From Artemia franciscana (Eukaryota; Arthropoda; Branchiopoda; Anostraca; Artemiidae): a DNA stretch of 64,000 nucleotides. The notes under the pieces were generated by a model. It saw nothing but the letters and a program-made list of their open reading frames with translations, did no database searches and was not told the origin of the DNA. Positions within the stretch are counted from its first letter, which is position 1, and the number at the start of each line of letters is the position of its first letter. The stretch is from positions 9,079,008-9,143,007 of the forward strand of contig NC_088881.1 in assembly GCF_032884065.1 (NCBI RefSeq). Direction: 5' to 3'. Shown here piece by piece: positions 4,401 to 7,400 of the stretch. A program made the translations under genes and the position numbers.

Positions 4401-7400
4401 TGCAAAAACTTCTATGTCGAGGGAAATATTTTGCGCATCGGGCTGCCTTCTTTTAGCTTTTTACTTTGGATTACAAACATTTTACTTTGGATCTACAGCT
4501 GTCTGAACTCGCAAAGGCTGTTGGTACGTCCCTTTCAATGTTTGAAACTTTCTTAGCTTGTTTTTTTTTCAAGTATAGGGAAACAGTCATTCCTGACAAA
4601 ACTGTCAGGGGTGCCTTTAAATGAGTTCAAATATGGAGATACGGACTTCTGCTTTAGTATGTGAAAGAATAAGCTACATGAGATTTATGGTTCGGGATTA
4701 CCATCTTTGTACGTTTTACTAAATAGGTTAGGTCTCCAAGATGTGTACAATTGGCAAAGCTGGGTTTTAGGCTCAACATGCTCACACTTGCATATTTAAA
4801 AAGTTTTTGGGTTACAAACTTGGGAAGTTTTTAGATTTGTCATACTTGTATGCTAATGTAAGTTTTAAGGTTGCAAACTGTCTCTTTAGATCGGTTTGCT
4901 GAACTCGCAAAGGATTGTTGATACAGCTTGATCAGTTTTTGAAACTAGTTTAGTAAAATTCATCATACAGAAAAATATTGTTGTTCCCAATTCTCATCTT
5001 TCCCAATTCTAAAAAGCCTTAAATCTTCGATTCAATGAGCTGATCCTTAAGATTACACTCTAAGCTGAGCATACCATAACTCACCAAATTACAGACGAGA
5101 TACATTATGGGCATTAGAGTCGCTTGTAATTTTGCTCTCATTGACAACTGCGACTCGGGCATAAGACATAACCATCCACACCAAAAAGACAAAATTACCT
5201 TTTTCCAGTTAACCGATTGGTTACGGGATTAGTTTCACTCCCTGTCAACCGGTTCAAGTCGCATCTCAAAAGCATCTCTTCCTGTTTCTTTCCTTTTCTC
5301 CTTCGGTCTTCGATCGATGCTTCACTATCTGGGGAATGGGACTTTCAGGTGTTAATCCAGCTTAGTCGGCCAAACACTTTGAAACCTAGCAAAAAATAAA
5401 AAACTTGAAACTAGCCTATTTTGTATACATACGAAACCCTATAGGCAAGTGTGTTCTCCTGATGAGCCCTTGTAATGGTTTGTTGCCTCTGAATTATTTG
5501 TCTTTATTGTTTTTATTGTTTGGTAAATGACGACTTATGATTATTGACGACATGACTGCATGTCCATGGATTATTCTTTATGGTTGATTATGCATGGCTA
5601 TGCTATTTGACCTATGTGGTTGTATGGATGGGTAGGGTTAAGGGCTCATTCAAGTGCTGGTCTATATTAGCCACTAATTTAGGACAACAGTTATCCCTTT
5701 CTCCTTCTATCTCCCTTCTTTTTTCTTTTTTTTGTGCTTGTGCTGTTGCATTGATGATTTCTCTTTTCGTTATATGTAAGTTAATAGTTATTTCCGACGG
5801 AATTATCTAGCGTGCTTTCAAGTGATTCTGAAGACAAAGATACGAACTGTTACTTTACATACGTTACGTCACGCTACGTTACTACGTTACTTACGTTGCT
5901 TGTCACTGAGCAGTTACTATCTGACCTTTACTATGTCAGATCATTCTGTTGTTACCCTGCTCCACACTCCTTTGTTTGTGGCTGCGACAAAGATCACATA
6001 AGAGTTTCCTCAGGCTTAAACATGGGCTTGAACTTTTTTTGAATTTCAGGTTTTTGAACTTCAGGTTTTTGAATTCGATTTGTTATTATGAATGTTTTAA
6101 TGTTGTGTCGTTTTTTAAAGCTTTCTTTATAAAGTGGTTCTTATTACTACAAATAAAAATAATATTCCAAGAGTTTTGGCAATTATATTGACTGAGAATT
6201 CTACTTATAGATCTGGTACAAAAAGTTCACGTAAAAGGAGCCTATAAAACAACAAGGGCTGCTTGGGAGTATATGAGGAAACAAAATTATGGTCGAATTA
6301 TAATGACATCTTCAGGATCTGGTATTTATGGAAATTTCGGCCAAGCTAATTATAGGTAAATGTCGAACTATATAATGAATGGGTAAAACCTTAAATAGTA
6401 TTTTTTTTTTTTTACCTAAATAGGTAAAAAAAATTCTACTCATAGATCTGGTAAAAAAGTTCACGTAAAAGGAGCCTATAAAACAACAAGGGCTGCTTGG
6501 GAGTATATGAGGAAACAAGATTATGGTCGAATTATAATGACATCTTCAGGATCTGGTATTTATGGAAATTTCGGCCAAGCTAATTATAGGTAAATATCGA
6601 ACTATATAATGAATGGGTAAAACCTTAAATAGTATTTTTTTTTTACCTAAATAGGTAAAAAAATTCTACTTATAGATCTGGTACAAAAAGTTCACGTTAA
6701 AGGAGCCTATAAAACAACAAGGGCTGCTTGGGAGTATATGAGGAAACAAAATTATGGTCGAATTATAATGACATCTTCAGGATCGGGTATATATGGAAAT
6801 TTCGGCCAAGCTAATTATAGGTAAATATCGAACTATATAATGAATGGGTAAAACCTTAAATAGTATTTTTTTTTTTTACCTAAATAGGCATGTCAGGAGA
6901 GTCTTCTTCCACCCCCTTCCAATGTTCTGGTATGATGTTTGCCATATATTTTTTGTAATAGAAGAATCTATGGTCATTTGCCCACCGAAAAAATGACACT
7001 TCAAAGTTTCAAAGACGATTATAATAGTAAAGGAAATCCTTTTGATTGTTTATGTCTTAAATGTCTGATAGAAATATTTCTGTTCATATCCAATTTGGGA
7101 TCCAAGCTAAAAGATTAACGTAAGGGAAGATTTATGGAAAATTGGAACTTCTTTGGACGGGGTTAAGAGGGAGACTTAGAGTATATTGGCACAGGAGGAG
7201 CGCGCGTAGCCACTTTGAGGATGGCATTGTATTTTTTTAATGGTTTTTTGTTTGTTTTTTGTTGGAAAATATATCATACCATCCTGATACATGTCAATTC
7301 TTGGTCTTAATTTTATCATTAATTACCTTCCTAACCTAAACAAGACCTAGAACCTAGCAAAAAAAGGGGGGAAAATGCGAACCTATCATGTATTACAGGG

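Follow-up and report, generated by a model that had tools for sequence, protein, structure and literature searches.

Why would a gene carry the same coding exon three times in a row, and what could the extra copies do to the protein that it encodes? This question is raised by the window, that is, the whole stretch of 64,000 nucleotides that we analyzed (C19:9079008-9143007 in a 1.27-Gb assembly). The version of the gene found in the window is referred to below as locus B, and a second version, on the same scaffold and 814 kb from B, as locus A.

Gene identity and architecture of the triplicated exon

The gene is identified as HSD17B4, also called MFE-2, which encodes a fat-breaking enzyme of peroxisomes, as had been proposed in an earlier sequence-only reading of this DNA and as our searches bear out. 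This identity, together with the long introns, suggests that the DNA is most likely that of an animal. When the exons joined via 1489 and 12583 were translated, the four top matches in the PDB were 2et6 (1.3e-92), named (3R)-hydroxyacyl-CoA dehydrogenase and taken by us to be a fungal MFE-2, human HSD17B4 (1zbq, 1.2e-67), rat HSD17B4 (1gz6, 4.4e-67), and a peroxisomal MFE-2 (3oml, 3.8e-61). Together with the assignment of the SDR domain to PF00106 by Pfam, these matches place the protein close to known HSD17B4. The triplicated exon aligns within the SDR domain of the human and rat proteins and, judging by the SDR motif, presumably carries the catalytic Ser and Tyr; by the same motif, we place the Lys of YxxxK in the next exon. 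Downstream of the triplicated exon, Pfam identifies hydratase-2 (MaoC-like) domains (PF22622, MFE-2_hydrat-2_N, at 25003-25302 and 32081-32380) as well as PF01575 at 39821-39961, and the order and strand of the hydratase domains and SDR exons suggest that they form a single gene. The glycine motif of the N-terminal NAD-binding exon, sought in A and B with a regular expression applied to every frame of the forward strand, gave no match. The window also contains, at 18713-19399, an open reading frame of 228 aa whose product, we assume, resembles a hAT-type transposon-derived protein.

The triplicated exon lies, with flanking intron, in a single tandem array, for which TRF reports a period of 231, 3.0 copies, and 96% matches, and in which a repeat search finds head-to-tail units beginning at 6197, 6431, and 6662 (Table 1). 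All three exon copies are directly preceded by AG and directly followed by GTAAAT, so that the earlier claim of three copies within 700 bp, each with its own acceptor and donor, is confirmed. With at least two adjacent exon copies bearing splice sites in one gene, the locus displays a tandem exon duplication, and it concerns this exon alone among the seven that were searched for by tblastn in the regions of A and B. As a repeat, the array lies far beyond chance. The event itself is less rare, because 41 arrays (units of at least 50 bp, length of at least 120 bp) were found in 294 kb of A and B, 16 of them in 150 kb of A and 25 in 144 kb of B, some being the same in both versions.

Copies 1 and 3 encode an identical peptide, their exons differing at exactly three positions, all synonymous, just as had been noted; in the 200-bp unit alignment there is a fourth difference, which is intronic. 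The accompanying claim of an unchanged peptide holds for these two copies and fails for copy 2, which carries an amino-acid change and lacks a base near the exon start. In the reading phase used by copies 1 and 3, copy 2 runs into a stop after seven residues. Finally, the upstream intron sequence that A and B have in common is present at B only before copy 1; it contains a branch-point-like TTGACTGAG, called by eye against a consensus.

Table 1. Features of the triplicated exon and its neighbors at locus B, in window coordinates
Feature	Position	Strand	Details
Upstream coding exon e3	1337-1489	+	tblastn, splice context, and alignment with 1zbq/1gz6; start taken from AG at 1335-1336; donor GTAAGT
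Tandem array, 3 x 231 bp, exon and flanking intron	6197-6888	+	TRF, repeat search
Exon copy 1	6211-6355	+	145 nt, phase 1 to 2
Junction palindrome, copies 1/2	6407-6433	.	Inverted copy of the preceding sequence; hairpin -10.2 kcal/mol
Exon copy 2	6446-6589	+	144 nt; 1-nt deletion and Asn-to-Asp
Junction palindrome, copies 2/3	6637-6663	.	Hairpin -9.3 kcal/mol
Exon copy 3	6676-6820	+	145 nt; peptide as in copy 1; three derived synonymous changes
Downstream coding exon e5	12583-12710	+	Completes Ser codon; reads AAKLALVG

Reading frame and predicted splice outcomes

We computed the frame outcome for all eight subsets of copies between e3 and e5. The downstream frame is open without a stop only in {1}, {3}, and {1,2}, and the first two of these give the normal protein. 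A stop is reached in {2}, {1,3}, {2,3}, and {1,2,3}, and also when all copies are skipped. Since the exon has a length of 145 nt and an asymmetric phase (1 to 2), the joining of two good copies necessarily shifts the frame, and an mRNA containing both 1 and 3 consequently has a premature stop. The deletion in copy 2 restores the frame behind copy 1, which is why {1,2} is open.

A mature mRNA would be expected to take one good copy, either 1 or 3, while an mRNA with both would run into its premature stop and be removed by nonsense-mediated decay. The use of a single copy per mRNA would then be imposed by phase and nonsense decay, with no dedicated switch. Copy 2 would be free to decay, a process that appears already to have begun. 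As the protein would be unchanged, the amplification is probably close to neutral.

The open frame of {1,2} could also be read as a longer enzyme in which copy 2, spliced behind copy 1, supplies the 48-residue catalytic segment a second time, but this we consider highly improbable. Although copy 2, as a 144-nt exon, is indeed in frame only after copy 1, any chance 1-nt deletion near the exon start would likewise be expected to give an in-frame copy 2. Moreover, Pfam sees in the {1,2} product two partial SDR stretches, for which misfolding would be expected, and the non-synonymous change borne by copy 2 also argues against a double-segment enzyme.

A second gene version with a different array of the same exon

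A DNA search of the genome found the sequence in at least two places, the window itself and C19:8271050-8271663. Blocks of locus A that are colinear with the window region extend from 8256696 to ~8359500, in the same orientation. The seven exons that were compared read without stops in both versions and show 10 synonymous and 8 non-synonymous differences (dS ~0.030, dN ~0.007), B being represented by copy 1 for the repeated exon and the non-synonymous count being crude, as all base changes in amino-acid-changing codons were counted. In uniquely aligned sequence, substitutions between A and B amount to 0.4-3.4% in 21 of 37 two-kb bins, with higher divergence at window 6-12 kb (9-11%), at 62-78 kb (7-12%), and in other places (4-7%). 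Only a few kilobases separate stretches of ~2% divergence from stretches of 5-12%, as seen when window 6000-12000 and 58000-78000 are compared with C19:8256696-8359500. Such a mosaic points to gene conversion, to recombination of old haplotypes, or to an error of assembly.

It may be that the assembly put two haplotypes, A and B, on one scaffold, or that the two are genuine duplicates. The low divergence in most bins and the dS value point to alleles, as does the pattern of gaps, with nine 100-N gaps in 134 kb of B and none in 140 kb of A. Old paralogues that later underwent conversion would be more consistent with the 9-11% at 6-12 kb and the 8-12% at 64-78 kb.

Locus A holds this exon in an array of another build, with 2.5 copies of a 200-bp unit. 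Two truncated copies, each comprising the acceptor and approximately the first 60 nt of the exon, are followed by one full exon. Both truncated copies read into stops, and each is followed by an inverted repeat of ~110 nt. Because the unit limits and junctions of A and B differ, the two arrays seem to have arisen by independent amplifications at one mutation-prone site. The ~110-nt inverted repeat (L005:5130-5240) is built partly from the exon's own sequence. The idea that this hairpin is a dispersed mobile element gained no support within the A and B stretches, where the whole hairpin occurs at its two array positions and nowhere else; short pieces of it occur in the exon copies of these stretches.

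The B array appears to be recent. Over ~200 aligned bp, copies 1 and 2 differ by three substitutions, 1 and 3 by four, and 2 and 3 by five, that is, at 1.5-2.5% of aligned sites, whereas copies 1, 2, and 3 differ from A's full exon unit by seven, eight, and nine substitutions (3.5-4.5%), in agreement with the earlier suggestion of a recent copy. With homopolymer length differences excluded, the B copies differ among themselves by six substitutions and one deletion, and against A's full unit they have six states in common. In view of these six states, the amplification most simply postdates the A/B split, although gene conversion could be an alternative source of them.

The arrays of the region also show a pattern in their sizes. 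Five arrays of B (at -4478, 6197, 11047, 13767, and 27968; window -4478 to 28646), with units of 146, 231, 168, 113, and 67 bp, all have a total length of 667-733 bp. From -4.5 to 34 kb of the window, the copy number is higher in B for each of the four arrays reported for A as well as B, and a fifth array is listed for B but not for A. Three arrays beyond 45 kb have the same size in the two versions or are slightly smaller in B. A number of arrays are listed for just one version; two of these, from A, lie opposite gaps of B. These lengths and copy numbers could reflect chance, biology, or an effect of assembly.

Our copy number of three is as read from the assembly, which brings up an explanation that we find doubtful, namely that this number is wrong and that either the array or the whole second gene version is an assembly error, produced by unresolved haplotypes or mis-sized arrays. 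It would fit the gaps of B, all the more as colinearity of B with A begins exactly at a gap end (window position -7609), and gaps between duplicated pairs are described as marks of false duplications in the part of PMC9516828 used here. It would also fit the uniform length of five arrays with different units and the larger size in B of those near the gene, but not the three arrays beyond 45 kb. Furthermore, the B copies differ by the substitutions and deletion given above and are thus not one sequence written three times, the array lies inside a gap-free stretch (1220-16930), and locus A has an exon array of its own, which is different.

Junctions and a proposed origin by fold-back copying

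Both junctions of the B array consist of CCTAAATAGG, then T with eight or seven A, and then TTCTAC. The bases that follow TAGG are those that a strand end folded on CCTA would be expected to copy, with nine and eight matches at the two junctions versus none at the unduplicated end. The probability of encountering TAAAAAAA at a given place is 1.2e-4 by base composition. The unduplicated end forms a hairpin of just -1.2 kcal/mol, compared with the junction hairpins in Table 1. At locus A, the truncated exon copies are directly followed by inverted copies of themselves, 10 or 12 bases long and imperfect. The inverted self-copies at the junctions of both arrays thus indicate fold-back template switching. 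One caveat is that the matched T and run of A lie in an A+T-rich region, and that the last A's could belong to the landing site AATTC.

In the mechanism that we propose, the nascent strand would form a fold-back at CCTAAATAGG, the small palindrome that lies immediately behind the exon, and the folded strand would then copy a few of its own bases in reverse, namely T and the run of A. Copying would resume upstream of the exon, at AATTC, leaving the exon duplicated and a palindrome at the junction. A second step would carry the same junction along from two to three copies. A recent tandem triplication of the exon by fold-back, with one good copy used per mRNA and a nearly neutral effect, is on the whole the probable explanation of locus B.

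Palindromes are not a general property of the local arrays, an idea that we rejected since only three of the 41 rank in the top 5% of a matched background for stem strength, which is about chance. Two of these three are the exon arrays of A and B (0.033, 0.04), values that are suggestive in a comparison made after the palindromes had been noticed; the third, at window position -43192, is stronger (0.02).

Possible signs of selection, and RNA folding

To polarize changes among the copies, we used the full unit of locus A as outgroup. Copy 1 has a single derived change, in the intron, and none in the exon. In copy 2, a change on the acceptor side and an amino-acid change accompany the deletion; copy 3 has three exonic changes, of which all three are synonymous, with a P of 0.010-0.018 if changes were random, depending on transition bias, for a post hoc choice of only three changes. 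This hints that copy 3 is translated and constrained, and it is the main sign of selection at the locus. The earlier suggestion of selection on both copies hence receives slight backing from copy 3, while copy 1 has no derived exonic change and copy 2 has decayed.

The second palindrome of B is 93% complementary to the first, and the pair encloses copy 2. In the ensemble of the whole array, the palindromes pair with each other around copy 2, with 5.2 and 5.6 expected base pairs versus 6.3 and 5.8 for local pairing. Docking-site/selector systems of mutually exclusive exons have competing pairings by which one exon at a time is exposed; at locus B, the palindromes are predicted to pair either locally or mutually, and the overall fold is ordinary, with a z of -0.78 and 5 of 20 shuffles as good. 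The B intron hairpin alone gives a z of -1.98 (7 of 200 shuffles as good). The first hairpin of A is strong (z of -9.82, 0 of 200 shuffles as good), and the second is 99% identical to it. For the donors, the unpaired values in local folds are 0.61 for copy 1, 0.50 for copy 2, and 0.38 for copy 3, the least accessible, which falls to 0.13 in the whole-array ensemble. A masking of the acceptors of copies 2 and 3 by the hairpins, which we also considered, is not supported: averaged accessibility fails to tell the copies apart in their branch and acceptor stretches, the branch-point stretches used for these two copies being TAAATAGGTAA, slightly downstream of the intended motif.

Could copies 1 and 3 be a functional mutually exclusive pair that makes the same protein, with a gain in splicing speed, dosage, or robustness? 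We judge this unlikely. The synonymous nature of the changes in copy 3 is what such a pair would lead one to expect, but they are few and were singled out post hoc. The splice sites kept in all copies also favor a pair, and the broken state of copy 2 speaks against it. Pairing of the palindromes around copy 2 is about as good as their local pairing, and in the model presented in the part of PMC6071210 used here, duplications that take in the arms of a stem-loop create competing structures; the ordinary fold of the whole array nevertheless argues against such a pair, as do the similar local accessibility of branch and acceptor stretches among copies and the poor accessibility of the copy 3 donor. 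In addition, the stretch of upstream intron that bears the branch-point-like motif before copy 1 is absent before copies 2 and 3. Copies 1 and 3 also encode one and the same peptide, whereas the known events covered in the part of PMC9741552 used here alter a homologous region.

A bolder possibility is that the exon is a hotspot repeatedly multiplied by fold-back, and that the palindrome made in the same event would provide arms in the RNA for the looping out or masking of surplus copies. Although rather improbable, it would, if true, mean that exon duplications are born silent and hence tolerated, and that this happened in parallel in two gene versions.

Discussion

We class the locus as a tandem exon duplication that appears to be recent and to be devoid of the usual mark of mutually exclusive exons, which is that the copies encode different versions of a segment: copies 1 and 3 are identical in peptide, and copy 2 is frameshifted when alone. 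In the literature that we searched, no paper was found on HSD17B4 with an exon duplication or a tandem duplicated exon. As this case seems young, it offers a direct view of its junctions, of a spare copy that is starting to decay, and of the frame rule that governs inclusion. Should the recurrence of amplification at this exon in both versions of the gene hold up, it would be a natural test of how duplicated exons arise and are tolerated before they acquire a function.

According to the part of PMC9741552 used here, most known human mutually exclusive exon duplications are ancient. As in the tandem duplications with mutually exclusive splicing described in the parts of PMC9741552 and PMC9013439 used here, a whole coding exon has been duplicated in HSD17B4 together with its intron flanks, and the length of the exon likewise forbids the joining of two good copies. 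Unlike those cases, copies 1 and 3 have identical peptides, one copy is frameshifted, and the event appears recent rather than ancient. The locus also resembles the competing-structure model, as set out in the material from PMC6071210, in that the duplicated exons have complementary arms on either side, through which a copy can be looped out. In that model, however, the duplication takes in an arm of an existing stem, whereas in HSD17B4 the second arm was seemingly made at the junction by the duplication. Finally, the short inverted copies that adjoin a direct duplication are reminiscent of template switching or fold-back at palindromes and of small inverted triplications, as presented in the parts of PMC13334657 and PMC7999016 drawn upon here. 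In contrast to those, the exact inverted piece in HSD17B4 is only 8-9 bp at locus B and 10-12 bp at locus A, and the repeated unit is direct.
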